DNA from: Bacteroidales bacterium
GTDB lineage: Bacteria; Bacteroidota; Bacteroidia; Bacteroidales; WCHB1-69
Direction: 5' to 3'
Length of the DNA: 64,000 nt
NCBI GenBank assembly: GCA_017525245.1
Contig: JAFXTE010000010.1
Location: forward strand, 1-64,000
The notes under the pieces are model-generated. The model worked only from the letters and a program-made list of their open reading frames with translations, was not told the origin of the DNA and ran no database searches. Position 1 is the stretch's first letter. Every line of letters starts with the position of its first letter. This document shows positions 10,658-45,938 of this stretch, one piece after another. Made by a program: the position numbers and the translations under genes.

Positions 10658-10695
10658 CAAAGATAGCGTGCGATTATGCCGAATCGTGGCACCCC
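10658..10695 (-). promoter_or_regulatory. Shared palindromic operator + -7 box, site 1
   Basis: The -7 box TATCTTTG is the complement of 10658-10665. Nine bases away is the palindrome read as TGCC-N7-GGCATA in promoter direction (10675-10691). It sits just past the end of the DnaB-like gene and fires towards hipB with a leader of about 140 nt holding no other gene I can see. Spacing is identical to the other ten promoter sites. Confidence 0.65.
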
Positions 10696-10702
10696 GCATT
10701 CC

Positions 10703-12055
10703 TTATATTTCCCCCTTCGACAGCTCCCACATCGAGCGCTCGCAGGTGTAGGTGGTCATCCGAAAGAGGTCGGGGATGCTGTAGCGCAGGTGCGTGCAGA
10801 GGGCGTGGACGAGGTAGCAGACGCAGATATGCTCGAACTGCGGGATGCGCAGCGGGCCTTCTGCCCAGGTCTGGCCGTCGTCGAGCTTGTTGGATTCGCC
10901 GTTGTGGATCGTGTGCGCGTCCATTCGCGAGAGTGATGACACCGCCCACAACATCTCGTTCCAGTGCGACCCGTAAAACGCATCCTCCTCCATCGGGAAG
11001 AGCTTCGGATCCTCGTAGTCGTGACAGTAGTTGATTTCCCCGATCAGATGGAAACGGTTGGCGCTGTGCTCGCCGATGTCGGGAAGCATATCCAGCTGTC
11101 GATTAAGTTGTTGCTGCTCTTCGTGGAAGCGATTCATCATATTCAGCAGAGCCTCGTTCACGTGCTCGAAACGGCGCACTTCGGCCTCGGTGCAGTGCAG
11201 CTCGAACATCCGGTTGAGGATGCAGGCGCGCTCTTCCAACAGTCGGTCGAGCACCTTTCCCGTGTGTGTGTCCCAGTCCAAGTCCCCATCGAAGGGCTTG
11301 GCCACGCGGAGGATTTCCTCCTCGGTAGTGGCAAGCATCGCGCGGAGTTTGTCCGTGTCCGATATCCCATGTATGTTCTGTTTCAGTGTCAGCGAAGCGT
11401 CCCACTTCAGATACTTCAGCTGCAGGTCAGGGACGCCACTCTGCCCGCACTCGGTGGTCAGCACCTCCAACAGATTCTTTTTGCCTCCGACAATATGGTA
11501 GTACTCGTCGCGGTGGAGCAGGCGCACATCGTCCACCCATTCTCCGATACGATCCCAATTGGGTATGTCCAGCAGGGTAGGGCGGTAGTCGTCGTGCATC
11601 AATACCGTGCGCCACAACTGCGTGAGTACGATGACAGCCACCTGAAGTTCTCCAGCCATCTTCTTCAACTCTTGGATGATATGCGCCATTTCCTCCCCAC
11701 GGTTCGTGAACGGTTGCGAGGAGGTCATCAGTTCCAGGTAGTCGATAATCACCCAGCGGATTTTCCGGGTTTCTTGCAGCTGGCGCACTTTCGAGCGGAT
11801 CGTGTCCTCGGTCATAGGCACCGTGTCGTCAAGGTTTATCCATTCGGGGCCTTTCCCGGTCGCGTAGTGCAGCAAGAGTTGGTCGCTTTTCATTTTGAGG
11901 GAGAAATAGACGGTGGGCAGATGCGCTTCCGTCGCAAGATGGAAGGCCATAGTGGTCTTGCCCATCCCGGGTCGTCCGCCGATTAGGTTGAGCGTGCCGG
12001 GCTGGTAGAGGGCGGACAGTTGAGCCAGGACGCGTTGGTTTTTATCGATTGTCAT
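10703..12055 (-). CDS. DnaB-helicase-like RecA-fold ATPase with unknown C-terminal domain
   Basis: A 450-residue protein. The first 230 residues resemble the DnaB C-terminal (RecA-type) domain: GTLNLIGGRPGMGKTT (Walker A), a strand-helix with YFSLKM, VIIDYLELM (Walker B) and VAVIVLTQLWR. There is no DnaB N-terminal domain. The last 220 residues are helical, rich in Glu and His, and not recognised. It is therefore not the replicative helicase but an accessory paralogue. Its promoter (12130-12137) carries the shared palindrome. One phospholipase-D-like copy lies directly upstream. Confidence 0.75.
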   Translation of the reverse strand: MTIDKNQRVLAQLSALYQPGTLNLIGGRPGMGKTTMAFHLATEAHLPTVYFSLKMKSDQLLLHYATGKGPEWINLDDTVPMTEDTIRSKVRQLQETRKIRWVIIDYLELMTSSQPFTNRGEEMAHIIQELKKMAGELQVAVIVLTQLWRTVLMHDDYRPTLLDIPNWDRIGEWVDDVRLLHRDEYYHIVGGKKNLLEVLTTECGQSGVPDLQLKYLKWDASLTLKQNIHGISDTDKLRAMLATTEEEILRVAKPFDGDLDWDTHTGKVLDRLLEERACILNRMFELHCTEAEVRRFEHVNEALLNMMNRFHEEQQQLNRQLDMLPDIGEHSANRFHLIGEINYCHDYEDPKLFPMEEDAFYGSHWNEMLWAVSSLSRMDAHTIHNGESNKLDDGQTWAEGPLRIPQFEHICVCYLVHALCTHLRYSIPDLFRMTTYTCERSMWELSKGEI

Positions 12056-12129
12056 ACTCTTGAATTTTTTTGCAAAAATAGTGTTTGCTGGACTATCCTA
12101 TAGGAATATGCTATTAGCAGACACGGCGG

Positions 12130-12166
12130 CAAAGATAACGTGCCGGTGTGCAAGAGTATGGCATAG
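12130..12166 (-). promoter_or_regulatory. Shared palindromic operator + -7 box, site 2 (DnaB-like gene)
   Basis: The -7 box TATCTTTG is the complement of 12130-12137. The palindrome at 12147-12166 reads CTATGCC-N7-TGCACA in promoter direction, exactly 9 bp upstream of the box. It drives the DnaB-like ATPase gene starting at 12055, with a leader of about 75 nt. Confidence 0.75.
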
Positions 12167-12174
12167 CGGAACAA

Positions 12175-12687
12175 TCACGCTATCGGGTCCCCGCAGTACT
12201 TCCGCCGCAGGCATTTCGTGCAGTGCAGTCCCATCCATACCTCGTCGAACTGCTGCATGGCTTGACGCACCAGTTCGGGTTCGTCGGTGAGGAGGCCCGC
12301 CTCGAAGTTGCGGGTGTTGGTTCCCTTCATCCCGATGCCCGCGCCGGTGAGGTTGGCGCTGCCGAAATAGACCGTGCCGCCGTCAAAGACCAGCATCTTA
12401 AAGTGGACCCGCGGACAAAGCACCCGTTCCAGCCCGCTTGCCAACGACGGGTACTTGTCGAAGTCCTCGCGGAAGGCGGGACCCGGTTCCTTGGCGTGGA
12501 TGAGGCGCACCTCCACGCCTTTGCGCACCAACTGTGCCAGTACCGCGAGGAACGGCAGCGTGCCGTCCCCGACTTTCACGTAGAGGTCCTTGATGTCGGC
12601 GGTGCCAATCCACAGCGACTTCCTGACGGAGGCCACACGGGAGAGGACGAGGTTGTAATGGTCGGTGTTGGAAATGTAGGTGAGCAT
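12175..12687 (-). CDS. Phospholipase-D-like protein, copy 1 of 3
   Basis: A 170-residue protein with a single PLD catalytic motif (HFKMLVFDG, then GSANLTGAG; the H-x-K-x4-D form) and a C-terminal Cys cluster (LHCTKCLRRKYCGDP) that could bind zinc. A one-motif PLD protein would dimerise to make an active site, as in Nuc-type nucleases. It is cytoplasmic by sequence (no signal peptide), so a nuclease is likelier than a lipase. It is nearly identical to 25069-25581 and 41589-42101. It follows the AAA/DUF4143 gene by 14 bp and may be co-transcribed with it. Confidence 0.85.
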   Translation of the reverse strand: MLTYISNTDHYNLVLSRVASVRKSLWIGTADIKDLYVKVGDGTLPFLAVLAQLVRKGVEVRLIHAKEPGPAFREDFDKYPSLASGLERVLCPRVHFKMLVFDGGTVYFGSANLTGAGIGMKGTNTRNFEAGLLTDEPELVRQAMQQFDEVWMGLHCTKCLRRKYCGDPIA

Positions 12688-12701
12688 AATACAAGTTGGG
12701 G

Positions 12702-14051
12702 TTATAACAGAGGTGTCATGTAGATCGGCAGGAATGTGATGCCATCTACCACCTTATAGTCCGCAGCATGAAGTACTGTGGGGGTCGTTATATGATTTCC
12801 AAACTTCTTCATACATTTTGTCAAAGAAGACAGCGTATAATTTTTGCCACTTTTGACTTCTACAGGTCGGATATTGTGGCGGCTGGTGACCTTTTCTTTC
12901 TGAAGCAGGAAATCAATTTCCATACGGTTTTCAGCATTTTCTTTGTCGTAATTGTTGTAGAAAAACAGCTTATTGTCTGCCGCTTTAAGCATCTGTGCCA
13001 CAATGTTCTCCACCAACATTCCCTCATTGATTTCCAGTTTGTCGAACATCAGTTTCTGGTAGATTTCGTTGCTGACGATGCCTCTGGCGTTGAAAGCTAA
13101 CGAGATGAGCAGCCCCGTGTCGCAGAAATAGCATTTTAGTGTGGTGCGTTCTTCGTTGAGTTGCAGGCCGATGTTCGGTGCAGTGGTATTGTAACAGATA
13201 TTGGCGATGCGTGCATCGTCGAGCCAAAAGAAAGCGCTGTCATATTCCCGCATCCGGGCTTCGTCCTTCAGGGCCGACAATGTGAATTTCTTTTCGTGTT
13301 TCTGGAGTTGGCCGGGGATGGCATCATAAATGGCCTCGACGCGGGCCAAGGCGGGACCTGCATATTTCTTGATGTCGTTTTTGTAGAGATGCAGAATCCG
13401 CCGTTTGACTGCATCCACTTTCTTGAAATCCTTAGACTGGACATATTCGGCCACGGCCTGCGGCATACCACCTACAATCATGTATTGGCGGAAATAGTGC
13501 ATAGCATCGCGATGGAAGTCGCCCATGGGCTTTTGTTGTTCAAACAGCTTCTGGATGTATGGCATCAGCACCTCGTTTCCCATAGCCCAAAGGAATTCCT
13601 CGAAATCCATCGGATACATATCAATACCGGCCTCTTCGGAAGGGATGACAATGTTCTCCACGTTCTTCTTTATGGAAATGAGCGAGCCTGTCTCCAGATA
13701 GTCGAAACGGTGGTCGGCGACCAGCGTCTTGATGGCTTCTCGGGCACGGGGACATTTCTGCACTTCGTCAAAAATGATGAGCGACTTGCGTGGTGTGAGT
13801 GTCTTTTTGTAATGGAGTTGTATGTTTTGAAGTAGTGTGTCCACGTCTTCCAAATAATCATCGAACCATGACTTGACTCTGGCCGGTGCTTTGCTGAAAT
13901 CAATCATGATATAGGATTCGTACTCGTTGCGGGCAAACTCCTCGGCGATATAGCTTTTCCCGATACGCCTGGCTCCCTCAATGAGTAACGCGGTTTTACC
14001 ATCCTGTTCTCGTTTCCATTGGACTAATTTGTCATAGATTTTCCGTTTCAT
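12702..14051 (-). CDS. AAA ATPase with DUF4143-type C-terminal domain
   Basis: A 449-residue protein. The Walker A motif is LLIEGARRIGKS (residues 23-33) and Walker B is KSLIIFDEVQKCP. The C-terminal half has the restriction-endonuclease-like strand pattern of DUF4143 (F-Y-N-N-Y, MEIDFLLQK, RPVEVKSGKNY). The family is very common and expanded in Bacteroidetes and archaea, often in variable islands; its function is not settled. The start is preceded by a -7 box (TATTTTTG, complement of 14116-14123). Confidence 0.88.
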   Translation of the reverse strand: MKRKIYDKLVQWKREQDGKTALLIEGARRIGKSYIAEEFARNEYESYIMIDFSKAPARVKSWFDDYLEDVDTLLQNIQLHYKKTLTPRKSLIIFDEVQKCPRAREAIKTLVADHRFDYLETGSLISIKKNVENIVIPSEEAGIDMYPMDFEEFLWAMGNEVLMPYIQKLFEQQKPMGDFHRDAMHYFRQYMIVGGMPQAVAEYVQSKDFKKVDAVKRRILHLYKNDIKKYAGPALARVEAIYDAIPGQLQKHEKKFTLSALKDEARMREYDSAFFWLDDARIANICYNTTAPNIGLQLNEERTTLKCYFCDTGLLISLAFNARGIVSNEIYQKLMFDKLEINEGMLVENIVAQMLKAADNKLFFYNNYDKENAENRMEIDFLLQKEKVTSRHNIRPVEVKSGKNYTLSSLTKCMKKFGNHITTPTVLHAADYKVVDGITFLPIYMTPLL

Positions 14052-14123
14052 AAATCACGTTTCCTAAGTTTTTCAAATAGGTGTTTCTACACCTTTCCAA
14101 GATTTTTTGAGAATGCAAAAATA

Positions 14124-14451
14124 CACATTTCCGCGATTTTTGCAATATCTGCAAAGTTTTTCTTTAACTCAAGTTTCGCAAGTATGCCTCAGACTGTTTG
14201 AGGAAATTTGTCTTTGGTCGTAGGAGATTTTGCCAGTTCCTGCCGTCACTGGCGGAATGGTGCGCCACATTCAAGGAAAAAGGGGGAAGAAGGTGCTCAC
14301 CATTCCGCCGAGAACGCAGTGAGCGAGCGGAATCTCCAACGGAAAATTACGAACACACGCCAACAGATGCAACAAAAAGAGCTTACGAAACTTAAAGCTT
14401 TAATTACGCAAAATGCGTAACGCAAAATGTGTAAAATGTTTTTTGGCAAAT
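14124..14451. repeat. Gene-free stretch with a REP-like palindromic element
   Basis: No supported gene. GGCGGAATGGTG (14251-14262) and CACCATTCCGCC (14298-14309) form a perfect 12-bp inverted repeat with a 35-nt loop. The following AGCGGAATCTCC (about 14326-14337) is a word also found in the elements near 36706 and 38189. The short open frames here run straight through the palindrome and are not credible. Confidence 0.5.
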
Positions 14452-14520
14452 CTACTCTTCGAAGCTCATGAGCCCGCCGATGAGGATGCCGAGGACGAGG
14501 AAGATGATGACGGCCTCGTT
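14452..14520 (-). other. In-frame membrane-helix extension after the TAA of the next gene
   Basis: Directly after the TAA at 14521-14523, the same frame runs 22 more codons to TAG (complement of 14452-14454). It encodes a strongly hydrophobic segment (AVIIFLVLGILIGGLM) followed by SFEE. There is no good start codon of its own. It could be a C-terminal anchor lost by a nonsense mutation, an anchor reached by readthrough, or chance. Confidence 0.4.
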
Positions 14521-14979: not shown

Positions 14980-14992
14980 AAGTGGTAGTGAA

Positions 14993-15406: not shown

Positions 15407-15477
15407 ATTTTTTCTATATTATTATTGTTTTTGTTATTATGGTTGATAACTAATTCAGTTGTTACTAATGGGTTGTG

Positions 15478-16794: not shown

Positions 16795-16821
16795 ATTTAA
16801 TAAATTAAAGTTAAAAAATGG

Positions 16822-17880: not shown

Positions 17881-17907
17881 ATTGTTGGTTTTTTAGATGT
17901 TGCTTTT

Positions 17908-20123: not shown

Positions 20124-20684
20124 ATTTTGAATGTTTATTAAAAAGTCATATTTGACAATACGAAAACAGCGCACCCCTTCCGCCCTTCAGGTGGAAAAGG
20201 CATCGCCAAACGCCACGCAACACTGAAAAACTGAAAAGAGTACGCCTATAGCAGACGTACCTATCAGTGTGCCCCGTTGCTAAAATTTGGCGATTTTTTT
20301 CCACGGCCACACTATAGCTTACGCTATCTTCAAATACGCTGCAAACATACAAAATATTTCTGTTCGGCATACTCTTTCCGTTTTTTTGCCTGCAAAAATA
20401 AGGGACAACTGTGCCATTCCACAGCACAGTGCCGCCTGCCATGGGAAATGTGTGACGGTAGATCACCATAGAACCATAATGGTCGCTTGCCTGTTTCATA
20501 CGGCAAAAATAACCATTCGCGCTTTGCGCACGTTGGTTCTATTTTGTTCTAATTCGACGGAGACTGCGGGGTTGCCCGCACAATAGCGGCGTGCGGATCC
20601 GATAGATAGCCGCATCGTGCTATAAGGTCCCGCACTCTTTCGGAGTATGGCAACGCGCTGTCAACCTTATAGGCAAAAACATCC
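20124..20684. other. 560-bp gene-free stretch
   Basis: No gene is supported. A 117-residue frame on the minus strand (20146-20499) is open but lacks a promoter-linked start, and its product is unlike a folded protein. Several short inverted repeats are present (GTACG at 20240-20244 with CGTAC at 20256-20260; GCGGGG near 20568). Sequence of this kind could be a decayed gene or structured RNA; I cannot tell which. Confidence 0.35.
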
Positions 20685-24967: not shown

Positions 24968-25068
24968 TTCCGTTCTTGTTTTAATTTGCAAAGGTACTCT
25001 TTTTTCAATATCATACCATCATGGATGATGTTTTTTTTCATTTTAGTTCGTCTTTTCAGTGGTTACGG

Positions 25069-25581
25069 CTACGCTATCGGATCGCCGCAGTACTTCCGCC
25101 GCAGGCATTTCGCGCAGTGCAGTCCCATCCACACCTCGTCGAACTGCTGCATCGCCTGTTGCACCAGCTCGGGTTCGTCGGTGAGGATGCCCGCCTCGAA
25201 GTTGCGGGTGTTGGCCCCTTTCATCCCGATGCCTGCGCCAGTGAGGTTCGCGCTGCCGAAATAGACCGCACTGCCATCGAAGACCAGCATCTTGAAATGG
25301 ACACGGGGACATAGCACCCGCTCTAACCCTTTCGCTAACGACGGGTACTTGTCGAAGTCCTCGCGGAAGGCGGGTCCCGGCTCCTTGGCGTGGATGAGCC
25401 GCACCTCGACACCCTTCCGCACCAACTGCGCCAAGACTGCCAGGAACGGCAGCGTGCCGTCCCCGACTTTCACGTAGAGGTCCTTGATGTCGGCGGTGCC
25501 TATCCACAGCGACTTCCTGACGGACGCCACGCGGGAGAGGACGAGGTTGTAGTGGTCGGTGTTGGAGATGTAGGTGAGCAT
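25069..25581 (-). CDS. Phospholipase-D-like protein, copy 2 of 3
   Basis: 170 residues, differing from copy 1 at about 7 positions. The HFKMLVFDG motif, GSANLTGAG and the Cys cluster are intact. Nucleotide similarity to the other copies starts sharply at the CGCTATCGG end, near the stop codon, and stops at the start codon, so the gene body moved or converted as a unit. It follows the RadA-like and DUF932-like genes. A -7 box (complement of 25609-25616) lies in the gap, so it can be transcribed alone. The start at 25581 matches copies 1 and 3. Confidence 0.85.
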   Translation of the reverse strand: MLTYISNTDHYNLVLSRVASVRKSLWIGTADIKDLYVKVGDGTLPFLAVLAQLVRKGVEVRLIHAKEPGPAFREDFDKYPSLAKGLERVLCPRVHFKMLVFDGSAVYFGSANLTGAGIGMKGANTRNFEAGILTDEPELVQQAMQQFDEVWMGLHCAKCLRRKYCGDPIA

Positions 25582-25667
25582 AATTCGGATGTCTAATAAT
25601 TTTGTTGGCAAAAATACGAGATTTCCTTACACAAAAAGAGATAGGCAAACAGAAAAAGAACCATTTG

Positions 25668-26734: not shown

Positions 26735-27577
26735 TTAAGTTGAATTGTTATTGAAAAGTTTGTCGAATTCGGAGGCGAAGTCGCGGAGCTGCGCCGACAC
26801 GTTGCTCTGCAGTTTGCGTAGTTGCAGGTCTTGCTGGTATCGTTCTTCGTCGTAAAATACGTCGCCGGTGGCGTTGAGGTTGTAGTAGAGTTTCACGCCC
26901 ACGTCGCCTCGGCGGTGTTTGGAGAAGGTCACGTAGCGGTCGCTGTAGATGTTCTTGGCGTTGTCGAGGCGCAGCTCCATCATCGCGGTGATCATGTGCT
27001 TGAGGCGGTTGGAGCCGATGAACGCGCCGCTTTTGGTCACCTGCTGGATGGTGAGGAAGGTAGTGTTGATCTGTCGGGTGTTCATCGCCTTGTTCTGCTG
27101 TTTGATAAGGCACAGCAGCATACTTTCGGCCTTCTTCAGCGTGATGTTCTCCTCCTCCTTGACGATGCCCTGTAGCTCGTGGAACGAGTCAATGGCCACG
27201 ATGTCCCAGCCCCGTTCCAGAATCGCGGTCAGTGTCTCCCAGTTGTGAGTGTCCTCATCTATCTGGCTTTCAATGAAAAGGATGTCGAGATTGCCGAACT
27301 TCGGGAAGCGTTGCACATAAATGGCGAGGTCTATTTCGTTCATCTCCGCGCTGACGAAGAGGATGCGCAACTCGGGCTGCAGCTGCTGGATGTTGGCGAG
27401 CATATCGAGGATGATGGTGGTTTTGCCCACGCCCGGGTCGCCGATAACCATATAGTTGACGCCTTTGGGCAGACCGGAGTAGGAACAGAGCAGCCTGTCG
27501 AGGACGGTACCGGTGAGGTAGTTCTCGAAGAGACTGCTGTCGAAGCGCAGGTCGCACATTCTTACGGTTTCGGTCAT
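26735..27577 (-). CDS. RadA/KaiC-like RecA-fold ATPase
   Basis: A 280-residue protein: Walker A in VIGDPGVGKTTI (about residues 43-53), RILFVSAEMNEID, Walker B in WDIVAIDSFHELQ, and a DNA-binding-loop-like stretch (INTTFLTIQQVTKSG, SNRLKHMITAMMEL). This is the core of RadA/Sms or KaiC-type RecA-fold proteins, without RadA's zinc finger and Lon-like domain. It is probably an accessory recombination or remodelling ATPase. The frame extends to 27733, but that extension crosses the promoter at 27652, so MTETVRM (27577) is chosen. Confidence 0.75.
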   Translation of the reverse strand: MTETVRMCDLRFDSSLFENYLTGTVLDRLLCSYSGLPKGVNYMVIGDPGVGKTTIILDMLANIQQLQPELRILFVSAEMNEIDLAIYVQRFPKFGNLDILFIESQIDEDTHNWETLTAILERGWDIVAIDSFHELQGIVKEEENITLKKAESMLLCLIKQQNKAMNTRQINTTFLTIQQVTKSGAFIGSNRLKHMITAMMELRLDNAKNIYSDRYVTFSKHRRGDVGVKLYYNLNATGDVFYDEERYQQDLQLRKLQSNVSAQLRDFASEFDKLFNNNST

Positions 27578-27651
27578 ATCATATAATTTTGTGGCGAAAA
27601 AACAATTTTCAGGCAAGCGGCAAGGAATTCTGCTATTCGCAGATTCTGCGG

Positions 27652-27688
27652 CAAAGATAACGGACAGGTGTGCCAAAGTGTGGCATAG
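27652..27688 (-). promoter_or_regulatory. Shared palindromic operator + -7 box, site 3 (RadA-like operon)
   Basis: The -7 box TATCTTTG is the complement of 27652-27659. The palindrome at 27669-27688 reads CTATGCC-N7-GGCACA in promoter direction, 9 bp upstream of the box. It drives the RadA-like and DUF932-like genes, with a leader of about 75 nt similar in length to that of site 2. Confidence 0.78.
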
Positions 27689-28093: not shown

Positions 28094-28603
28094 TTATTGA
28101 TTCCCTTTAACAATCCCCGCGATTTTCTCGTCCATCTTGTTCAGGAACTCTCCGAATGGCAGATTTGGGTTCGTGTGAGCCATTTCATCCTGATAATCAA
28201 CCGTATGGAAGTGGTCCACCGCGTTTCCGAACCAGGAGTCCTCAATGATTGGGGACTTTTGCCCAGATGCAGGCGGCAGCACTTTGATGACGTGGACGGT
28301 AAGGCCTTTGTGGTGGACTTTGCACCAGGTTAGATTCACGCTGACGGCCAGGCATTTCACATACAACGACGAGCACCCACCTTTGGGAGGTTTGATCATA
28401 TTACCGGGCGAGTCCCACACAAGCAGCCACACCTCTATCGGCGGGTCGTAGTCGCCGTCCTCCTGGCAATAGAGATATTGCTGCACAAAATCCTGGTCCG
28501 ACATCCACTCCGTAGTGATGTCGTCCGCGAAATAAGACAGAACGCCTCTTTTACATTGTTCGGCGTTGAAGCCGATGGGGATGATAATGGTTTTGGTGGT
28601 CAT
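28094..28603 (-). CDS. Hypothetical protein under the shared operator
   Basis: A 169-residue cytoplasmic protein, mixed alpha/beta, rich in Trp, His and Cys (IEVWLLVWDSPGN, LYVKCLAVSVNLTWCKVHH, DSWFGNAVDHFHTVDY). I recognise no domain. The promoter (28627-28634) is only about 25 bp upstream of the ATG and carries palindrome site 4. First gene of a two-gene operon with 27758-28081. Confidence 0.62.
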   Translation of the reverse strand: MTTKTIIIPIGFNAEQCKRGVLSYFADDITTEWMSDQDFVQQYLYCQEDGDYDPPIEVWLLVWDSPGNMIKPPKGGCSSLYVKCLAVSVNLTWCKVHHKGLTVHVIKVLPPASGQKSPIIEDSWFGNAVDHFHTVDYQDEMAHTNPNLPFGEFLNKMDEKIAGIVKGNQ

Positions 28604-28626
28604 AATCTTTGTTGTTTTTGATGCGG

Positions 28627-28691
28627 CAAAGATAATGCGGGGCTATGCCAATTCGTGGCGTAGTAGGGCTGCCGCAGTGCGACAGCCCTAC
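28627..28691 (-). promoter_or_regulatory. Shared operator site 4 with adjoining hairpin
   Basis: The -7 box TATCTTTG is the complement of 28627-28634. The palindrome at 28644-28663 reads CTACGCC-N7-GGCATA, 9 bp away. It runs straight into a hairpin: GTAGGGCTG (28663-28671) with CAGCCCTAC (28683-28691). The same composite, with the same flank further out, is seen at 29881-29945, so the segment is duplicated. Confidence 0.78.
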
Positions 28692-29225: not shown

Positions 29226-29858
29226 CTACCAGTCCGGCTCAAACTCCCAGTCCACCGGCTTCCCGTTCAGGTCGAAAACCTGGCACGTGTCGCACCCACC
29301 AACCTTATAGGCACCCGAGTCCACCAATGTGTTGGGAACATATACTTCTTTGAGAAGATGGGCTTCCTCAAGGCACCACGTATCAACACCTTTTATACAT
29401 TTAGGTAGCCTGATGGATGTGAGGCGTTCTGAAAAATACTCTCTCAAGCCCTCCCCGATATATTCAACAAAAGAATATTCGTCCTCAACGTCAACCATAT
29501 CGGGTAAGTCAATGTGTCCGGACAGTTGGTGCATCTCCTCACCCCAGAATAATTGTACGACATTGTCATAACTGTAGATTTCCAGCGTGTTGTTATGGTT
29601 TGCAGCGTAGATGGATCGTTCACTTTTTTCGGAAGGGAAGAATTTTTGGATATAACAGCCCGTGTACGCATCAAGATCCTCGGAAACGTATCGTACACCC
29701 AGCAGTTGCTCTTCCGGATAGGGTTGTTCTTTGCCGTTTACGGACAATACCAAACGATCGGGCTGCAATGTTGATATGCACCCGCCAATAGTCCCGTCCG
29801 GAGTCTCGATTTCCACGAAGTCCCCGACCTGCAGGTTTTCGTTAATGTACTTCAACAT
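29226..29858 (-). CDS. Small-barrel / LRR_5-like protein, intact paralogue
   Basis: A 210-residue protein. The N-terminus is a small beta barrel (LQVGDFVEIETPDGTIGG, PDRLVLSVNGKE). The C-terminus has BspA-like leucine-rich-repeat phrasing (ERLTSIRLPKCIKGVD, LLKEVYVPN) and ends with YKVGGCDTCQVFDLNGK and a Trp-Glu tail. A damaged paralogue lies at 30423-31054. The frame runs on to 30176, but that part is translated repeat and promoter; MLKYINENL (29858) follows the operator-bearing promoter at 29881. Function is unknown. Confidence 0.65.
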   Translation of the reverse strand: MLKYINENLQVGDFVEIETPDGTIGGCISTLQPDRLVLSVNGKEQPYPEEQLLGVRYVSEDLDAYTGCYIQKFFPSEKSERSIYAANHNNTLEIYSYDNVVQLFWGEEMHQLSGHIDLPDMVDVEDEYSFVEYIGEGLREYFSERLTSIRLPKCIKGVDTWCLEEAHLLKEVYVPNTLVDSGAYKVGGCDTCQVFDLNGKPVDWEFEPDW

Positions 29859-29880
29859 ATCTTTGCTGTTTTTGATGCGG

Positions 29881-29917
29881 CAAAGATAGTGCGAGATTGT
29901 GCCGATTCGTGGCATAG
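29881..29917 (-). promoter_or_regulatory. Shared operator + -7 box, site 5
   Basis: The -7 box TATCTTTG is the complement of 29881-29888. The palindrome at 29898-29917 reads CTATGCC-N7-GGCACA, 9 bp away. The leader (TTTTTGATGCGG before CAAAGATA on the plus strand) is nearly the same as at sites 4 and 7, showing that promoter and leader were copied together. Confidence 0.8.
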
Positions 29918-30002
29918 TAGGGCTGCCGCAATGCGACAGCCCTACACAATGCGACAGCCCTACACAGTGCAACAGCCCTACGCAGTGCGACAGCCCTACA
30001 CG
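29917..30002 (+). repeat. Hairpin plus four 18-bp tandem repeats
   Basis: GTAGGGCTG (29917-29925) pairs with CAGCCCTAC (29937-29945). The right arm then recurs in a perfect-phase 18-bp tandem array, 29931-30002 (unit about ATGCGACAGCCCTACACA, four copies). Translated on the minus strand it gives a V-G-L-S-H-C repeat, which is an artefact of the array, not a protein. It is upstream of operator site 5. Confidence 0.8.
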
Positions 30003-30111: not shown

Positions 30112-30330
30112 TCAAAAACAGTCTGTCGTTTCTTCCTCATTCTCCACCCTTTCAATGCACTCCTCGATGTCGGCAATCAGTTCTTTCAAGAACTCTAATT
30201 TCTCGGACTTGTTTGGAAAATTGTCAGGATGTGCTTCAAATTCACTCTCAATCAATTCACCAATTGTGAACTCCCACCCTAAATCTTCCTCATTCGTGGC
30301 GACATAAAAATAATAATCGTTCATATTCAT
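30112..30330 (-). CDS. Small acidic hypothetical protein
   Basis: 72 residues (YYFYVATNEEDLGWEFTIGE, then LIESEFEAHPDNFP and an acidic helix). No family. It has its own operator-bearing promoter (30381-30417). The leader shares the phrase GTGTCGGGCGCAACT and GTGAATACT with the leader of the 46-residue gene at 39028-39168. The frame could begin at either of two close Met codons. Confidence 0.55.
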   Translation of the reverse strand: MNMNDYYFYVATNEEDLGWEFTIGELIESEFEAHPDNFPNKSEKLEFLKELIADIEECIERVENEEETTDCF

Positions 30331-30380
30331 CTTCCCTGATTCGTGTCGGGCGCAACTGTTGGTGAATACTAAAGTTTCGG

Positions 30381-30417
30381 CAAAGATAGCGTGAGACTAT
30401 GCCAATTTGTGGCAGAG
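30381..30417 (-). promoter_or_regulatory. Shared operator + -7 box, site 6
   Basis: The -7 box TATCTTTG is the complement of 30381-30388. The palindrome at 30398-30417 reads CTCTGCC-N7-GGCATA in promoter direction, 9 bp away. It drives the 72-residue protein gene. Confidence 0.78.
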
Positions 30418-30422: not shown

Positions 30423-31054
30423 TTATGGCCAGTCCTTCTCCAACTCCCAGTCGAGTAGATGACCTTGCATATCGCGCAGTTCGCAGCAGGTGCAGCCGCC
30501 CACCTTGTAAAAGCCGAGGTGTTGGATTGTCGGGGGGAGGTAGATGGTCTTTAGATTGCTGCATTTCTTAAAGATGCAAGGAAATACTTCCTTTGTAAAT
30601 CTTGGCAACTTGACGGATGTTAAGGTGTCTGGGAAGCACGTGCCCCGTATTCAACGCCCTCTATAGCATATAATTTTCCGTCATATTCCACACAATCGGG
30701 TAAAAGCAGGTCTTTCTCCAGTTCGTTGGTTTTGTCTGTGACATTCATATACAAAAATCCTCCAAAATAACCGTAGAAAAGTCTTTGGTTGAAATCGTAT
30801 CCGTAAACTGAATCAGGATTGATCTCTTCAGGGAAAATCTTTATGATGTAGAAGGGGAAGATACAGGTGTCGTCATCTTCAAAGTATTGCAATCCGGTGA
30901 TGTCATCTTCAGCAAACCGGACGATTCTCCCCTCGCACGACAAGGACAACGAAGCAGTCTCTAGTTCTGTTATAACCCCTTGATATACTTCGGTTTTCGA
31001 TTCTATTGTGATATGGTCCCCGACCTGCAGGTTTTCGTCAATGTACTTCAACAT
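30423..31054 (-). pseudogene. Frameshifted paralogue of the small-barrel / LRR_5-like gene
   Basis: Two frames join to a protein matching 29226-29858. The first (from MLKYIDENLQVGD at 31054) ends after a G-run at 30643-30646 (plus CCCC). The second (30423-30608 and just upstream) continues with LTSVKLPRFTKEVF and ends YKVGGCTCCELRDMQG. One missing G would restore the frame, so this is a one-base deletion in a homopolymer: either a recent pseudogene or a sequencing error. It has operator site 7 at its promoter. Confidence 0.7.
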
Positions 31055-31076
31055 ATCTTTGTCGTTTTTGATGTGG

Positions 31077-31113
31077 CAAAGATAGCGCGGGAGTGTGCCG
31101 GTTTGTGGAGTAG
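31077..31113 (-). promoter_or_regulatory. Shared operator + -7 box, site 7 (degenerate)
   Basis: The -7 box TATCTTTG is the complement of 31077-31084. The palindrome at 31094-31113 reads CTCC-N7-GGCACA, so the left half-site is weakened while the right half and the 9-bp spacing are kept. The weak site belongs to the damaged paralogue, which fits decay of an unneeded copy. Confidence 0.65.
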
Positions 31114-38219: not shown

Positions 38220-38280
38220 CTCCGTCTCGCAAGGACGCGGAACAGCATAATATGGAATCCTGATTGCACGATTGCGAAAC

Positions 38281-38979: not shown

Positions 38980-38985
38980 TCCTTT

Positions 38986-39020: not shown

Positions 39021-39027
39021 CTTCGTT

Positions 39028-39168
39028 CTACTTCTTCGGCACAAAAATATAGGTTTTGTTGCCTATCGCTTTTGCGGTGCCGCCCATCTTGTGCGCGGCG
39101 TTCATCAGTTCGCCGGACGAGGAGTACGTCTGGCTCATGCCGTTCGGGAAATTTAAGGTGTACATCAT
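39028..39168 (-). CDS. 46-residue protein under the shared operator
   Basis: MMYTLNFPNGMSQ, then YSSSGELMNAAHKMGG and KAIGNKTYIFVPKK: a compact strand-helix-strand protein of 46 residues with Gly-rich turns. No family is recognised. Coding is supported by its own operator-bearing promoter (39221-39228) upstream and a terminator 8 bp downstream, so it is a complete monocistronic unit. Its leader resembles that of the 72-residue gene at 30112-30330. A small regulator, toxin or inhibitor is possible but unproven. Confidence 0.6.
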   Translation of the reverse strand: MMYTLNFPNGMSQTYSSSGELMNAAHKMGGTAKAIGNKTYIFVPKK

Positions 39169-39220
39169 CAAAACCCTGGTACGTGTCGGGCGCAACTTTT
39201 AGTGAATACTGAAAACGCGG

Positions 39221-39282
39221 CAAAAATAGGGCATGGGTGTGCCAGTGCATGGCATAGTGGAGACGCGGGGCCGCGTCTCCAC
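39221..39282 (-). promoter_or_regulatory. Shared operator site 8 with adjoining perfect palindrome
   Basis: The -7 box TATTTTTG is the complement of 39221-39228. The operator at 39238-39257 reads CTATGCC-N7-GGCACA, 9 bp away. It abuts the palindrome GTGGAGACGCGG (39257-39268) / CCGCGTCTCCAC (39271-39282), with 12-bp arms and 2 central bases. Confidence 0.8.
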
Positions 39283-39315
39283 GGTGGGGATGTTGTCCCG
39301 ATGCCCGCGCCCGTA

Positions 39316-41454: not shown

Positions 41455-41588
41455 TATCCTTTTCTTTAATTTTTGTGCAAAAATACGAAATTTATCATAC
41501 TAGTGAATAATTTTCAAAATTAAAATAATCAACAAGATGTTATGTGTGTTTATAACGTGTGAAAAATGCACGTTATTCCCCGATCCGG

Positions 41589-42101
41589 CTACGCTATCGG
41601 ATCCCCGCAAAACTTCCTTCGAAGGCATTTCGCGCAGTGCAGTCCCATCCACACCTCGTCGAACTGCTGCATGGCCTGGCGCACTAATTCGGGCTCGTCG
41701 GTGAGGATGCCCGCTTCGAAGTTGCGGGTGTTGGCTCCTTTCATACCGATGCCTGCGCCGGTGAGGTTCGCGCTGCCGAAATAGACCGCGCTGCCGTCGA
41801 AGACCAGCATCTTAAAGTGGACCCGCGGACAAAGCACCCGTTCCAGCCCGCTTGCCAACGACGGGTACTTGTCGAAGTCCTCGCGGAAGGCCGGACCCGG
41901 CTCCTTGGCGTGGATGAGGCGTACCTCCACGCCCGTGCGCACTAACTGCGCCAAAACCGCGAGGAACGGCATCGTGCCGTCCCCGACTTTCACGTAGAGG
42001 TCCTTGATGTCCGCCGTGCCAATCCACAGCGACTTCCTGACGGAGGCCACGCGGGATAGGACGAGGTTGTAGTGAACGGTGTCGGGGATGTAAGTGGTCA
42101 T
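41589..42101 (-). CDS. Phospholipase-D-like protein, copy 3 of 3
   Basis: 170 residues, differing from copy 2 at about 9 positions, most in the first six residues (MTTYIPDT in place of MLTYISNT). The PLD motif and Cys cluster (LHCAKCLRRKFCGDP) are intact. The segment around the stop, GGCTACGCTATCGGA, is shared with copy 2 and partly with copy 1. It lies between abiE and an AT-rich unknown gene, 30 bp after the latter. Confidence 0.85.
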   Translation of the reverse strand: MTTYIPDTVHYNLVLSRVASVRKSLWIGTADIKDLYVKVGDGTMPFLAVLAQLVRTGVEVRLIHAKEPGPAFREDFDKYPSLASGLERVLCPRVHFKMLVFDGSAVYFGSANLTGAGIGMKGANTRNFEAGILTDEPELVRQAMQQFDEVWMGLHCAKCLRRKFCGDPIA

Positions 42102-42131
42102 ATTTCAAACTATTAATAAAGTATAGCTGAA

Positions 42132-42740
42132 TTATAATTGACTTGAAATTACTTTATGCCACCAATCCCATGAATAACAGGAAGAAGGGTGATACACAGC
42201 TATACAACGAGCTTGTTTCTTATTTTTCAATTGATAATAACCATTATTTATATTCCATCCATCTACATCTAATGGCTTACCCCATGACCATTTATCTTCT
42301 GGCAAATTATTAAACAACTTACCCACACCCCATACAATGATTAAGTCAGGTTGCAATTCATTAATTACTTCAAGAAAAGCATCCTCTGCATTTTTATAGT
42401 CTATTGTAGCACCCGATTCTCTAGCTCCAGACATAGGGACTTGAAGATAATTATAGAACGATATGGAATTCCATATGTCTTGACTGTCCTCTGGGCTAGT
42501 CTCTTTGCCTTTAAGTGAACGTTCAAATTTTAAATAAGTATTAGTCCATTTTCCATTATTTTCGCGAAACTCGCCATTTCTAATTGCAAGATAGTCAGTC
42601 ACAACTTTATCCGTCAATGTAGCTACGGCTTGTTCCTCTGAACAGTAAAAACTTTCACCAATAGCTAGAATTTTTTTACCCAAGAATCCGCTTGTTTCGT
42701 ATTTATTGCCAACCCAAGGTTTAAAACGTATATGTTTCAT
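42132..42740 (-). CDS. Unknown protein with uracil-DNA-glycosylase-like signature
   Basis: A 202-residue cytoplasmic protein. KKILAIGESFYCSEEQ (strand + G-E), LQPDLIIVWGVGKLFNNL (second strand, G-x-G-K) and CIAVYHPSSCYSW (H-P-S) follow the order of UDG-superfamily motifs. The residues between them differ from known glycosylases, so the substrate is open. The gene is markedly AT-richer than its flanks. It may be the upstream partner of PLD copy 3. Compare 18963-20123. Confidence 0.5.
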   Translation of the reverse strand: MKHIRFKPWVGNKYETSGFLGKKILAIGESFYCSEEQAVATLTDKVVTDYLAIRNGEFRENNGKWTNTYLKFERSLKGKETSPEDSQDIWNSISFYNYLQVPMSGARESGATIDYKNAEDAFLEVINELQPDLIIVWGVGKLFNNLPEDKWSWGKPLDVDGWNINNGYYQLKNKKQARCIAVYHPSSCYSWDWWHKVISSQL

Positions 42741-42897
42741 AATGTTTTATTTACTTTATTTTATTACTAATGGCGACCTCTATTTTTTTCTTATTTTCCC
42801 TTTTCGTTGTAGCTGACAGCCGAGGCACCAGTGGAAATCGCCAAACCACAACGACAGGTTTGTATTGCTGAATATAATTTTACAAAAGTAATCATTT

Positions 42898-43908
42898 TTA
42901 CGATACCAAAAACGGGAACCTGTCAAAATTCCTTAATGCGACCGATGTGCCGCGCACGACTGCACGCAGCGGATCCTCCGCTACATGGACTGGAAACCCA
43001 GTTTTCAGATGCAGCCGCCTGTCTAGGCCGCGCAGCAGCGCACCTCCGCCAACCAGATGGATTCCCAACCTGGAAATGTCTTCCAACACTTTCGGAGTTG
43101 TGCTGTTCAGCACATTCATCACAGCTGTCTCAATCCGTCCTATGGAATTGTCCAGCACATCCGCCACCTCATCATGCGTCACCCGGATGGTCTTGGGGTT
43201 TTCCAAGTTGTAATTGGACAATTCAAAAGGAGCTGGCGCATCCGGAACATCCCTCATGGCGGCACCGACATGGATTTTGACCTGCTCCGCCATCCGGCTG
43301 CTATTTTCCATGTCTGGAATCTGCTGGATATAATCTACAATGTCCCGTGTGAACTCGTCTCCGGCTGTTTTGATAGCGGCCATCTGCACAATGCTTCCCG
43401 ATGAAATAACAGAAATCTCGCTTGTCCCGCCGCCAATATCCACAATCATTTTCGCCTCCGGTCCCATCACATCCAGTCCGATGCCGATGGCAGCCGCAAA
43501 CGGTCTGTATATCAGCCGGACATCAACGGCACCCGACTTTTTTAACACATCGCAGACAAACCGCACCTCCACTTCCGTAAGGCCTGTCGGGACAACGGCG
43601 GCCACCTTCAGCGGAATCGGGCTACGACCGTTCACAATGCGAAGGAAATCCTCCACCATCTGCCTGAACGCTTGGAAATCACTAATCACACCGTTCGCCA
43701 GCGGCCAAACAACGTGGTTCTTCCCCATTCCGTCATCCGGACATCCGGCAGCCTCATTGCCCAACAATAGCAATCTACCTGATTCGGAATCAATCATGAT
43801 GGCTGAAGACTCCTCCAACACGATTTCATCATGATACATTACACGTGTGTTGGCCGTTCCCAAATCCACAGCCAACTCCCTGAGATTAAAAGAATTGTTA
43901 TCCGTCAT
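42898..43908 (-). CDS. Divergent MreB-like actin homologue
   Basis: A 336-residue protein with the actin-fold ATPase signatures of MreB: ELAVDLGTANTRVM (phosphate 1), KMIVDIGGGTSEISVIS (phosphate 2), GDEFTRDIVDYI, and GIHLVGGGALLRGLDRRL (adenosine). The N-terminal 60 residues differ from cell-shape MreB (EESSAIMIDSESGRLLLLG). No mreC, mreD, pbp2 or rodA is nearby, which the shape gene usually has. It is probably a paralogue with another filament-forming role. Operator site 9 lies at its promoter, and the AAA+ gene is just upstream. MTDNNSFNLRE (43908) is chosen; the longer frame crosses the promoter. Confidence 0.82.
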   Translation of the reverse strand: MTDNNSFNLRELAVDLGTANTRVMYHDEIVLEESSAIMIDSESGRLLLLGNEAAGCPDDGMGKNHVVWPLANGVISDFQAFRQMVEDFLRIVNGRSPIPLKVAAVVPTGLTEVEVRFVCDVLKKSGAVDVRLIYRPFAAAIGIGLDVMGPEAKMIVDIGGGTSEISVISSGSIVQMAAIKTAGDEFTRDIVDYIQQIPDMENSSRMAEQVKIHVGAAMRDVPDAPAPFELSNYNLENPKTIRVTHDEVADVLDNSIGRIETAVMNVLNSTTPKVLEDISRLGIHLVGGGALLRGLDRRLHLKTGFPVHVAEDPLRAVVRGTSVALRNFDRFPFLVS

Positions 43909-43951
43909 GATTTCAGAAAATGTTACAAGTGCTTCATAATTGATTGTGCTG

Positions 43952-44015
43952 CAAAAATAACACCAGACTGTGCAAAAGTATGGCATTGTAGAGACGCGCC
44001 ATGGCACGTCTCTAC
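43952..44015 (-). promoter_or_regulatory. Shared operator site 9 with adjoining hairpin (MreB-like gene)
   Basis: The -7 box TATTTTTG is the complement of 43952-43959. The operator at 43969-43988 reads ATGCC-N7-TGCACA, 9 bp away. It abuts the hairpin GTAGAGACG (43988-43996) / CGTCTCTAC (44007-44015), whose loop contains GCCATGGC. The hairpin lies between the AAA+ stop (44027) and this promoter. Confidence 0.78.
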
Positions 44016-44026
44016 ATGCCGCGGCT

Positions 44027-45799
44027 CTACGCCTGAAACCCGATACTTCCCCCGTTGCACCCGTTCCCGATCTTCTCGTGACGGCACAGCTCTTCGATTT
44101 TCGCCACTGTGGGACGGGTGCCGTGCAGAACCTCCTCCATCACGACCTTGCGGATGATGTTGTCGATCTCGCCGCCGGAGAAGTCGAACTTCGTGGATAG
44201 CGCCCGGCAATCGTCGTCGGGGAGCCACCCCAACTTGCTCTTCCAGATGCTCTGCTTGGCCTCCACCGTGGGCTGCCCGAACTCGACCTTGAACAGGAAT
44301 CGGCGGGCGAAGGCGCTGTCGAGGTTGTCGGTGAGGTTGGTGGTGGCGATGAGGATGCCGTCTAACTTCTCCATCTCCTCCAAGATGATGTTCTGGATGG
44401 CGTTCTCGGTCTGCGCCACACTGCTGGAGCCGCTGGCATTGTTGATGTTCTGGCGGCTGCTCAACAGAGCGTCGGCCTCGTTGAAGAGCAGGATGGGTTT
44501 CTGCTTCTCCTTCTCGCAAAGTCTGCGGTAGTTGGTGAAGATGCCCTTCACGAGCTTTTGACTCTCACCGTACCAGCAACTCTTTGCCGCGCTGATATCC
44601 ACGTGGCACACCGCCCGCCCCGTGATGCGCGCAATTTGCATGGCCGTCTCGGTCTTGCCGGTGCCGGGCAGACCGTAGAACAAGGCGGCAACGCCTTTCG
44701 GCATAGCCAGTTTCTCTAATTGATTTTGCAGTTCTGAAAATTTCTCTTCCAAAAGGTTTTCTTTGAGAAGTTCTAACTGCTCGGATTGTTCTTTGTCGTA
44801 GAACATGGACTTTTCCGCGATTTTGTCAGGATAAATCAAACTCTGACTGCGATTGTCGGTGCTGAAAAGGTCGTAGTCTTCCTCTAAAAACAGCTGCTTG
44901 CCCTTGTCGGTGAGAACGATGGATGCATCGGAAAACATGCTGCCTTGAGTTACCTCAATGAGGCCGGCTTTTTGCAGTTCGTGCTCCCCTTCCTTGAGTT
45001 CTCTGGCCACATCCATTCTTAGGCACGTTTCTGCATAAATGTCTTTCAGGATACACTCTATGTCGCTTTCACGATCACGAGTAGTGACGAAATCGTCGCA
45101 GACTTCGTAAAAAAGTGTGCGAACTTCTACGTCAAAATTCAGTTTGAGGAAGTTTTTTACGAAAGTGAGATTTTTGTGCTGCTTTTCCAAAGGTCCTATT
45201 TGTCTAAAGAGACGCAAGCTGGAAACTTTTTCATTTTCCCGGCTTTCGATGAGATTCGAAACTGCATTTACGAACTTATAACGGTCAAAATCAGGTGCTT
45301 TAAGCGTTTTCAAATCCAACTTTTTGTCATCGAAAATGGCCTCTTTCACCTGCGGATTAATAATATAGTCGTTTCTCTCGCTGAACTGATGTGTGGTTTC
45401 AGCCAAAAAGATGCGTTTGCGCACCAGTTCTTCAAAGTCGTTTCTCATCATCAGAAACTCCATGCTTTTGATGCCGAAAAACGAACAAATGTTGTCCTTG
45501 TCGAAGTCCTTGCGGTCAACATTTTGGGCGAAACCGGCCACGAAGATGGCTGCCTGTAACGGCGTGACAGCTAAAAAATCAGCAAGCTGTTTGTTCTTCA
45601 GTACCACTTGATCCACCATTTCGGATTTGTAACGAGGCTCGTCCGACACAAACGATTCTCTTCTTTCACTGCGGCGTCTTGGCCGTTCATATTCCGGTAG
45701 TGTGCCCGGTGCAATGGCGTTAATCAATTGCGTTTCAGAGTCTTCCATCTGTACGGCGAGGAAGCTCAGGGTCTGAATAAGGTTGTTTTTTTTCATCAT
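44027..45799 (-). CDS. AAA+ ATPase with N-terminal helical and winged-helix region
   Basis: A 590-residue protein. The first 370 residues are helical with a winged-helix-like stretch (ELQKAGLIEVTQGSMFSD, IVLTDKGKQLFLEED). The AAA+ core has LFYGLPGTGKTETA (Walker A), PILLFNEADALLSSR (Walker B with N in place of the first D), GILIATTNL (sensor 1) and LDSAFARRFLF (arginine finger). It is of the Bacteroidetes ATP-binding family related to cell-division-protein-48-type ATPases. It is divergent from the WYL regulator, with three operators between them. Start MMKKNNL (45799). Confidence 0.85.
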   Translation of the reverse strand: MMKKNNLIQTLSFLAVQMEDSETQLINAIAPGTLPEYERPRRRSERRESFVSDEPRYKSEMVDQVVLKNKQLADFLAVTPLQAAIFVAGFAQNVDRKDFDKDNICSFFGIKSMEFLMMRNDFEELVRKRIFLAETTHQFSERNDYIINPQVKEAIFDDKKLDLKTLKAPDFDRYKFVNAVSNLIESRENEKVSSLRLFRQIGPLEKQHKNLTFVKNFLKLNFDVEVRTLFYEVCDDFVTTRDRESDIECILKDIYAETCLRMDVARELKEGEHELQKAGLIEVTQGSMFSDASIVLTDKGKQLFLEEDYDLFSTDNRSQSLIYPDKIAEKSMFYDKEQSEQLELLKENLLEEKFSELQNQLEKLAMPKGVAALFYGLPGTGKTETAMQIARITGRAVCHVDISAAKSCWYGESQKLVKGIFTNYRRLCEKEKQKPILLFNEADALLSSRQNINNASGSSSVAQTENAIQNIILEEMEKLDGILIATTNLTDNLDSAFARRFLFKVEFGQPTVEAKQSIWKSKLGWLPDDDCRALSTKFDFSGGEIDNIIRKVVMEEVLHGTRPTVAKIEELCRHEKIGNGCNGGSIGFQA

Positions 45800-45821
45800 A
45801 ATTACATTAATTTTGACGCTG

Positions 45822-45938
45822 CAAAAATAAACCACCACTGTGCAATTCCATGGCATAGTCAATTTTTCCATTGTGCATAAAATTGGCATAACTTTTTTAA
45901 ACTGTGCCATGGAATTTCACACCTATTTGTTATCTTTG
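45822..45938. promoter_or_regulatory. Divergent promoter with three operators (sites 10, 10b, 11)
   Basis: Site 10: -7 box TATTTTTG (complement of 45822-45829), operator 45839-45858 (CTATGCC-N7-TGCACA), facing the AAA+ gene. Site 10b: TGCA-N7-GGCA at 45872-45891 with no -7 box. Site 11: operator 45902-45921 (TGTGCC-N7-TTCACA), then 9 bp, then TATCTTTG 45931-45938, facing the WYL gene. Sites 10 and 11 share the word CCATGGAAT. Centre-to-centre distances are about 33 and 30 bp, roughly three helical turns, which suits cooperative binding and autoregulation. Confidence 0.82.

Follow-up and report, generated by a model that had tools for sequence, protein, structure and literature searches.

Introduction

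Transcriptional regulators with a WYL domain are, to our knowledge, known to govern defence or accessory loci through one or a few promoters each. Activation by WYL proteins in a fixed register with the promoter is known from Caulobacter and mycobacteria. The sites described for DriD overlap the −35 element and keep a constant distance to the −10 box (PMC12340889), PafBC is reported to insert between sigma domain 4 and the DNA and to be switched by single-stranded DNA (ssDNA) (PMC11804915), and SiwR is described as an activator that binds a 19-bp palindrome between −35 and −10 (PMC10693628). BrxR is described as a WYL repressor of a phage defence island, whose binding sites are inverted repeats of 11 bp separated by 5 bp and which also acts on its own promoter (PMC9122601). 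Here, we analyzed a stretch of 64,000 nucleotides of a Bacteroidales genome (assembly GCA_017525245.1, contig JAFXTE010000010.1, positions 1 to 64,000; hereafter called the window), in which one palindromic operator precedes the −7 boxes of twelve accessory promoters at a fixed distance. One of these promoters belongs to the gene of a WYL regulator (45966..46883, plus strand). No comparable WYL regulon in Bacteroidales was found among the open-licence papers listed by literature searches.

Results

One Operator-Promoter Element Is Confined to a Variable Island

The original prediction had listed eleven palindromes in the window, each 9 bp from a −7 box, and a pattern search recovered all of them at their positions with exactly this gap. 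Nine of the eleven match TGCC-N7-KKCA-N11-TATNTTTG exactly, while the site at 28627 has one mismatch and the site at 31077 has two. A twelfth site that was absent from the earlier list lies on the minus strand at 20393-20426 (one mismatch). Allowing up to two mismatches, the window contains 13 matches compared to 0.63 expected by shuffling; the thirteenth (43973, two mismatches) is spurious. In a weight matrix with masked spacer columns the 12 sites score at least 29 bits, and 20 mononucleotide shuffles gave no match of 10 bits or more. A leave-one-lineage-out test, built on the eleven sites (the 20393 site is outside the matrix and was never left out), assigned 25.6-38.0 bits to the omitted sites, while the best score in reversed DNA from 25 of the 49 loci introduced below was 19.5. 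These pattern and matrix scans placed no site near the −7 boxes that had been called motif-less, which were not re-examined singly.

The source genome (3.68 Mb in 111 contigs, 94% complete) was searched as a whole. Ten exact matches were found, nine of them in the window, and none for a control pattern. A longer pattern with up to three mismatches revealed 13 sites, 12 in the window, compared to one for the control. The lone site outside the window is located on contig C57, 41 nt 5' of a paralog of the AAA ATPase gene that adjoins the WYL gene. Since nine of the ten exact sites sit within the window, the set is confined to a variable island and the dispersed regulon that had been proposed was rejected. 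The accessory genes of the window lie between ligA and an M3 peptidase gene, which they separate by 43.7 kb. Among 14 genomes, this one included, the gap measures 30.6 kb in G029, 22.3 kb in G034 and 11.2 kb in G031 (no exact motif), and in five genomes the two genes are adjacent, 20-728 bp apart (G013, G015, G027, G028, and G037); in another five, ligA and the peptidase gene are on different contigs or ligA was not found. This variation in size among relatives marks the interval as a chromosomal hotspot. In G028 the WYL cluster is located elsewhere.

We searched 104 genomes of the family for both the motif pattern and the WYL protein. The exact motif occurs in 57 of them with 165 matches in total, compared to three matches of the control pattern. 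In a wider sample of 393 genomes of the order, six of which belong to the family, 40 of the 387 non-family genomes were matched (44 matches, about 0.11 per genome), and the control pattern gave six matches in the full sample. The motif is a family trait above a low background and, as the density test of the prediction anticipated, scans of the genome and its relatives find it far denser in the islands of the family than elsewhere, with the 9-bp spacing kept. For further comparison we used 49 loci (774 kb), a selection biased toward the motif as the majority were picked for carrying it, with lineages that are not independent of one another. These loci contain 175 sites of at least 20 bits compared to none in reversed DNA, and behind 168 of the 175 a frame that opens with ATG and spans 40 codons or more lies within 200 nt. 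The search with the WYL protein led to loci recorded as uncultured Bacteroidales, many of them from rumen or other ruminant gut.

The Operator Covers the −33 Region at One Distance From the −7 Box

Across the 165 unique contexts the element consists of a 23-bp dyad, ACTRTGCCA-N5-TKKCAYASY, followed by seven less conserved bases and TATYTTTGCCGC. The distance between palindrome and box is exactly 9 bp in 104 of 107 strict palindromes that have TAnnTTTG within 60 bp; the exceptions show gaps of 12, 34, and 43 bp. Of all 153 palindrome readings 46 have no box at 9 bp, and by eye these are mostly other-strand readings of the same dyads. The dyad axis lies 19 bp 5' of the −7 box, and the dyad covers the place where the −33 box is expected, which is described as TTTG in Bacteroidetes (PMC7366714).

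The spacer is unusual as well. After near-identical promoters had been collapsed, we compared 61 motif promoters with 350 ordinary −7 promoters of the available DNA. Over the 9 bp that adjoin the box, the A+T fraction is 0.48 in motif promoters versus 0.73 in ordinary ones (p=3e-17), a difference that does not arise by construction, because the spacer columns are masked in the matrix. A G directly before the box is found in 6 of 61 motif promoters versus 172 of 350 ordinary ones. Farther upstream, both classes have the same A+T fraction (0.62 and 0.62).

The Same Operator Precedes the WYL Gene and Its Orthologs

The WYL gene is preceded by operator and −7 box at 45905..45939 (plus strand; ACTGTGCCA-tggaa-TTTCACACC, then TATCTTTG), and its start was assigned to an ATG 26 nt past this operator-promoter. 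Its product combines a predicted N-terminal helix-turn-helix with a WYL and a WCX domain (Pfam WYL 2e-10, WCX 2e-7, both above cut-off). No helix-turn-helix family of Pfam matched at E<=0.1; predicted helices and the conserved N-terminus point to this domain. The WYL-core residues R174, W175, and Y176 as well as L191, D192, and R193 (counted from base 45948) are invariant in an alignment of 13 sequences, and this region aligns with PafBC and DriD-like chains. A profile matches PafBC and DriD structures, and the WYL-WCX part aligns with DriD 8tp8. Alignment A2 comprises the window protein and 12 of 26 loci, the others being omitted because of an in-frame stop (L172), redundancy, partial length or by choice; alignment A1 comprises the window and six loci.

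Upstream regions were compared in 33 ortholog loci from 32 genomes (52-100% identity), which were fetched by coordinates and are a subset of all WYL matches. Outside this subset are, for example, G002 as well as the WYL genes found in G070 and G080, and G038 and G063 are partial; matches that start past query residue 20 or have less than 60 nt upstream were skipped. In all 33 loci a dyad stands in register before the −7 box of the WYL gene. Its left half reads TGCCA, TGCAA or TGACA and its right half TTTCA, TGTCA or TGGCA, while the surroundings diverge. The distance from the end of the site to the ATG is 17-29 nt in 32 WYL loci. Six of 25 more distant WYL homologs also have an in-register dyad (L110, L111, L116, L132, L180, and L184). 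Locus L095 contains tandem WYL genes (4009-5906), of which the ortholog (69%) has the dyad and the 35%-identity copy does not.

Furthermore, motif and regulator occur together. The exact motif is present in 34 of 38 genomes with a close WYL ortholog (E<=1e-100 in the 104-genome search) versus 23 of 66 without one (p=4e-8, not corrected for kinship), and the mean number of sites per genome is 3.2 versus 0.65. A second operator and −7 box, at 45821..45855 on the minus strand, serves the divergent AAA ATPase gene. In L110, L111, L132, and L184 no AAA match was found in the available DNA and the WYL dyad is retained; hence, of the two proteins it is WYL that constantly accompanies the operator. 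Between the divergent promoters lies a third, imperfect palindrome, TGCATAAAATTGGCA (45874..45888), with no −7 box at 9 bp as judged by eye, and similar half-sites were seen by eye in several relatives.

Operator Letters Tend to Change With the Recognition Helix

Loci with the recognition helix RTFMRH (L137, L141, L142, and L159) have TGTCA half-sites, three of the four as TGACA-N5-TGTCA, and those with RTFHKW (L110, L111, L132, and L184) have TGCCC half-sites. The remaining loci mostly read R[ST]F[HMQ] followed by N or H, paired with TGCCA; L114 is broken and its helix unreadable. The changed dyad is found, at the same distance, before the WYL gene as well as the divergent AAA gene of L141 and L159, and in L180, recorded as Lentimicrobiaceae, the WYL and AAA genes each have CTGCCA-N5-TGGCAG, again at this distance. 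Thus, the operator letters tend to change with the recognition helix at fixed spacing, although with exceptions. This covariation comes from few lineages but is what a regulator and its cognate operator should show. Taken together, the dyad at all 33 ortholog loci, the co-occurrence and the covariation indicate that the WYL protein is very probably the regulator of the motif promoters, in agreement with the original prediction of one WYL regulator.

A palindrome TGACA-N5-TGTCA (often TGACACGACGTGTCAGTGGAACATTGTATTTTTG) at the same distance to the −7 box was also seen at loci L143-L157, L160, and L162. The pattern occurs in 19 of the 104 family genomes, including the three with the switched WYL operator, and in G060 (C2:42901-42934) it lies 19 bp 5' of a 39% WYL paralog. 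It may represent a second operator family of the same architecture.

ATPases and Small Proteins Stand Behind the Operators

In the 49 loci the most commonly served families are WYL (32 loci), a merged 169-aa/DnaB-like family (28 sites in 22 loci) and AAA (18 loci). A merged RadA-like/74-aa family follows with 10 sites, then 46/47-aa (9), 210/211-aa (8), 72-aa (7), and DUF6140 proteins (6). RtcB, exonuclease, ABC-type ATPase and FtsZ-domain proteins are served in three loci each and a GyrB-like protein in one. A suspected likeness of the DUF6140 protein to PRTRC protein C was rejected, as Pfam gives DUF6140.

The most constant partner of the WYL gene encodes the AAA ATPase (44027..45799, minus strand; Pfam AAA 5e-22); the motif precedes this gene in 17 of the 19 genomes that have a member of its family among the loci studied. 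Its structure model was poor (predicted local distance difference test, pLDDT, 61) and was not used. All further operators of the window are on the minus strand, as are their genes. The operator at 43951..43985 precedes a gene for an MreB-like protein (42898..43908; Pfam MreB_Mbl 2e-79). This filament protein had been counted in the predicted set, yet a string search through the open reading frames (ORFs) of the 49 loci found it in the window only, apart from a fused fragment in G081, and we rejected it as regulon core. The operator at 39220..39254 precedes a 46-aa ORF (39028..39168) that is conserved in relatives behind the motif. This ORF is the first of a series of genes on the same strand, among them those for RtcB, an ADP-ribosylglycohydrolase and two GmrSD-domain proteins, and gene order suggests that the series forms one operon. 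RtcB itself stands directly behind the motif in three of eight genomes of its family.

Three small proteins follow. The operators at 30380..30414 and 29880..29914 serve a 72-aa protein (30112..30330), motif-bearing also in relatives (seven loci), and a 211-aa protein (29226..29861), neither with an assigned function. The operator at 28626..28660 (one mismatch) serves a 169-aa protein with the signature KxIIIPxGFNAEQC (28094..28603), a frequent regulon member with no family match (Pfam E<=0.1, NCBIfam, PHROG) and no solved relative. An FtsZ-like nature of this protein, suspected from its first 20 residues, was rejected, since Pfam, NCBIfam and PHROG gave no match and the best PDB hit had E=0.086. 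Elsewhere, a weak site precedes the gene of an FtsZ-domain protein in G069; the 228-aa protein of L118 (11045-11731), in which only an FtsZ/tubulin GTPase domain was matched (Pfam 2e-31), has a weak site of 21 bits.

The operator at 27651..27685 serves a RecA-fold, KaiC/RadA-like ATPase (26735..27577; Pfam KaiC 8e-7, NCBIfam RadA 2e-9), the one at 20392..20426 a 74-aa ORF (20146..20370; motif in all eight genomes of its family among the studied loci), and the one at 12129..12163 a DnaB_C-domain ATPase (10703..12055; Pfam DnaB_C 4e-35), which has no N-terminal DnaB domain among its Pfam matches. The last operator, at 10657..10691, lies 145 bp 5' of the hipB-like start, ahead of genes for an antitoxin-like helix-turn-helix protein, a HipA_C toxin-like protein and an RNase_T exonuclease (8446..10512; Pfam HTH_3, HipA_C 2e-51, RNase_T 1e-18). 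Hence, Pfam supports the earlier labels MreB, AAA, DnaB, KaiC, and WYL-WCX, whereas RadA is matched only below its NCBIfam cut-off and the protein called DUF932-like has no Pfam match at E<=0.1. According to the annotations made here, no core repair gene stands behind any of the 13 genomic sites. We rejected a phage-borne regulon, as a single stretch of a viral collection carries the stricter motif and none of 10 proteins scanned matched a PHROG of the structural category.

The motif-less neighbours in the window include HicAB, YafQ, AbiE, GmrSD, RtcB, an ADP-ribosylglycohydrolase and a DUF4143 ATPase; some of them may be co-transcribed behind a motif promoter. The island genes are in the company of conflict and defence genes. 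Among ten window proteins scanned, PADLOC reported an IetA/TRIP13-like match limited to the AAA domain, a HEC-06-type GmrSD protein and a PDC-S01 candidate, and no BREX or CBASS set and no complete recognized defence system. The window contains no tRNA. A PLDc_2 gene region is present in three copies of about 90% identity (12177-12694, 25066-25586, and 41586-42108), of which the middle copy lacks the shared open frame. Members of this gene family were seen in 14 genomes of the study set, 18 in all, and every one of them lacks the motif.

Promoters Seem to Have Been Copied Within the Window

A self-comparison of the window revealed three groups of sites, {28627, 29881, 31077}, {12130, 27652}, and {30381, 39221}, in which promoter and leader are common over 69-101 bp at 75-90% identity. 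Only the genes behind 29881 and 31077 are evident paralogs. As few downstream genes are paralogous while the promoters are alike, new genes seem to have received copies of a promoter together with its leader. Judged by these likenesses, the 12 window sites represent about eight lineages and are not all independent. The gene behind the 31077 site (operator 31076..31110, minus strand) is a frameshift-broken paralog (30423-31054) of the 29226-29861 gene that has retained its operator with two mismatches.

Several unrelated small genes share a 23-nt leader element, GTTGCRCCCGACACGWAYCAGGG, a few nucleotides 5' of their start codons. It is found at 30334-30356 and 39174-39196 (minus strand) and at loci L190-L219 and, with up to one mismatch, in 31 of the 104 family genomes, and genes that lack the WYL operator can have it too. 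Rfam gave no match in the window at gathering scores, nor in four leader-element loci at E<=1, and the element is possibly an undescribed 5'-leader or translation element. By eye, G+C-rich hairpins (GTAGGGCTGTCGCA..., GTAGAGACGC...) were noticed directly 5' of several operators (28670-28684, 29924-29938, and at sites 39221 and 43952) and at the WYL promoters of L095 and L121; they are perhaps terminators, or repeats of the repetitive extragenic palindromic type that aid promoter copying.

Discussion

We infer from these sequences that the WYL protein (45966-46883) would bind the 23-bp dyad as a dimer and thereby take the place of the −33 box. Its targets would be the WYL gene itself, the divergently oriented AAA ATPase gene and ten further island promoters. 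There it would hold polymerase and the housekeeping sigma factor at sites that fire weakly alone, and its WYL domain would be switched by bound nucleic acid. As a whole, this model is fairly probable. The position of a repressor on a promoter is free, that of an activator in contact with the polymerase is not. Given that the spacing is invariant and that the promoters lack their ordinary accompaniments, the WYL protein would most likely be an activator, and we consider activation rather than repression probable. A nucleic-acid ligand appears somewhat probable, and a stress- or defence-type purpose, in particular a programme of the defence or conflict type, is suggested tentatively. Phage or DNA damage, as put forward in the original prediction, may be the inducing stimulus.

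Several observations weigh against this model. TTG at the −33 place (22-24 bp) is absent from all 61 motif promoters versus 47 of 350 ordinary ones with it, a difference that arises by construction, and the −7 boxes of the motif promoters are excellent where poor promoters would be expected for activator targets. The structure model of the WYL protein has medium confidence (pLDDT 73). At 19 of the 33 WYL loci the dyad is symmetric at just four or five of nine half-site positions, and 193 of 3000 random windows reach at least four by chance. As many WYL dyads are imperfect, it is the conserved letters, and not symmetry by itself, that carry the case. No in-register dyad was found at 19 of the 25 distant homologs, including L179 and L181 (45% identity), and the 23 genomes with exact motifs and no close ortholog include two that background does not explain, G006 (seven sites, 68% complete) and G073 (five sites, WYL 43% identical). 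The covariation has its exceptions, too. In L142 (G084) only the WYL promoter switched to TGACA, while others keep TGCCC or TGTCG with TGGCA; L180 has RSFHRH and nevertheless TGCCA, and for TGCAA in L095 and L140 and TGCCG in L116 no matching helix change was noted.

The strongest alternative, although rather unlikely, is a repressor of the BrxR/CapW type that sits over the −33 region and releases its own gene and the island genes upon a ligand of infection or damage. An operator in this position would suit a steric repressor too, which is a further point against activation. GmrSD, AbiE, HicAB, YafQ, and HipA genes are among the window neighbours, and the 5-bp spacer and the own-gene site resemble those described for BrxR (PMC9122601). 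However, steric repression needs no particular distance, and a single one is found at 104 of 107 sites and is kept in divergent WYL groups. The spacer composition departs from that of ordinary promoters, and the BrxR site as described sits downstream of the predicted −10 box (PMC9122601).

It is very unlikely that another regulator owns the motif, be it the AAA protein or a LexA of the non-canonical S24 type found in Bacteroidetes. Bacteroidetes LexA-like proteins are described to bind CTAA-N5-TTAG, GGA-N5-TCC, and a diverged N5 dyad (PMC8565304), and the genome does have one S24 gene, but this gene (contig C80) is near none of the 13 genomic sites. Moreover, the dyad is present at every examined WYL ortholog locus, the operator letters track the WYL recognition helix, with the exceptions named, and the dyads kept by WYL genes with no AAA match in the available DNA speak against the AAA protein. 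An alternative sigma factor was rejected, since its site would not be a dyad that tracks the WYL recognition helix. Least probable is that the motif is mainly a by-product of copying, its spacing due to common descent rather than function: the three like promoter groups of the window would fit, and copying is compatible with WYL-dependent activation and accounts for the spread of the promoter, but not for its upkeep, given that about eight lineages are left in the window, that left-out lineages still exceed the control, that 165 unique contexts keep dyad and box while most spacer positions are poorly conserved, and that diverged WYL groups hold the spacing despite changed letters.

The arrangement might be a self-contained promoter code of the whole island, a reading we offer with some reserve, in which a nucleic-acid-gated WYL activator replaces the −33 contact of the housekeeping sigma factor, accessory genes are newly recruited when an operator-promoter-leader segment is copied in front of them, the operator thereby serves as membership tag of an inducible conflict-response island, and regulator and operators co-evolve by simple changes of the recognition helix. 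One operator grammar extends over up to a dozen promoters per island in an uncultured Bacteroidales family, and its diverged regulator and operator versions read like a specificity code. The system makes it testable whether fixed-register WYL activation extends to the Bacteroidetes sigma factor, which signal acts island-wide, and what joint role the 169-aa, 211-aa, 72-aa, and DUF6140 proteins have with the AAA ATPase. In practice, the motif can also serve to find further regulon members.

Compared to known systems, the operator shares with the non-canonical LexA proteins of Bacteroidetes the N5 dyads with letters that change between paralogs, but those proteins, as described, belong to the S24 family and have other half-sites and SOS genes such as error-prone polymerases as targets (PMC8565304). 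With BrxR and CapW it shares a WYL protein encoded beside the genes it would control, the inverted repeat with a 5-bp spacer and a site at the own promoter (PMC9122601); BrxR is described to repress two regions with its main site 3' of −10, whereas here a dozen promoters have the operator at the −33 position with one invariant spacing. PafBC and SiwR of mycobacteria are likewise WYL activators, reported to act at −26 to −35 between sigma factor and promoter (PMC11804915, PMC10693628), but PafBC is described as a heterodimer with more than 150 damage-response genes (PMC10693628), compared to a single WYL gene and an island regulon here. DriD of Caulobacter, a WYL homodimer activator gated by ssDNA, has a divergent promoter adjoining its own gene (PMC12340889), as does the WYL protein of the window. 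The two differ in phylum and sigma factor, in the regulon, which here comprises a single accessory island and showed no core repair gene, and in the in-register own site of the WYL gene, since DriD reportedly makes no use of an own-gene site. The operator position is that of the DriD, SiwR, and PafBC activators: an operator at −35, here −33, at one fixed distance from the box, which is also found in the diverged dyad-bearing groups.

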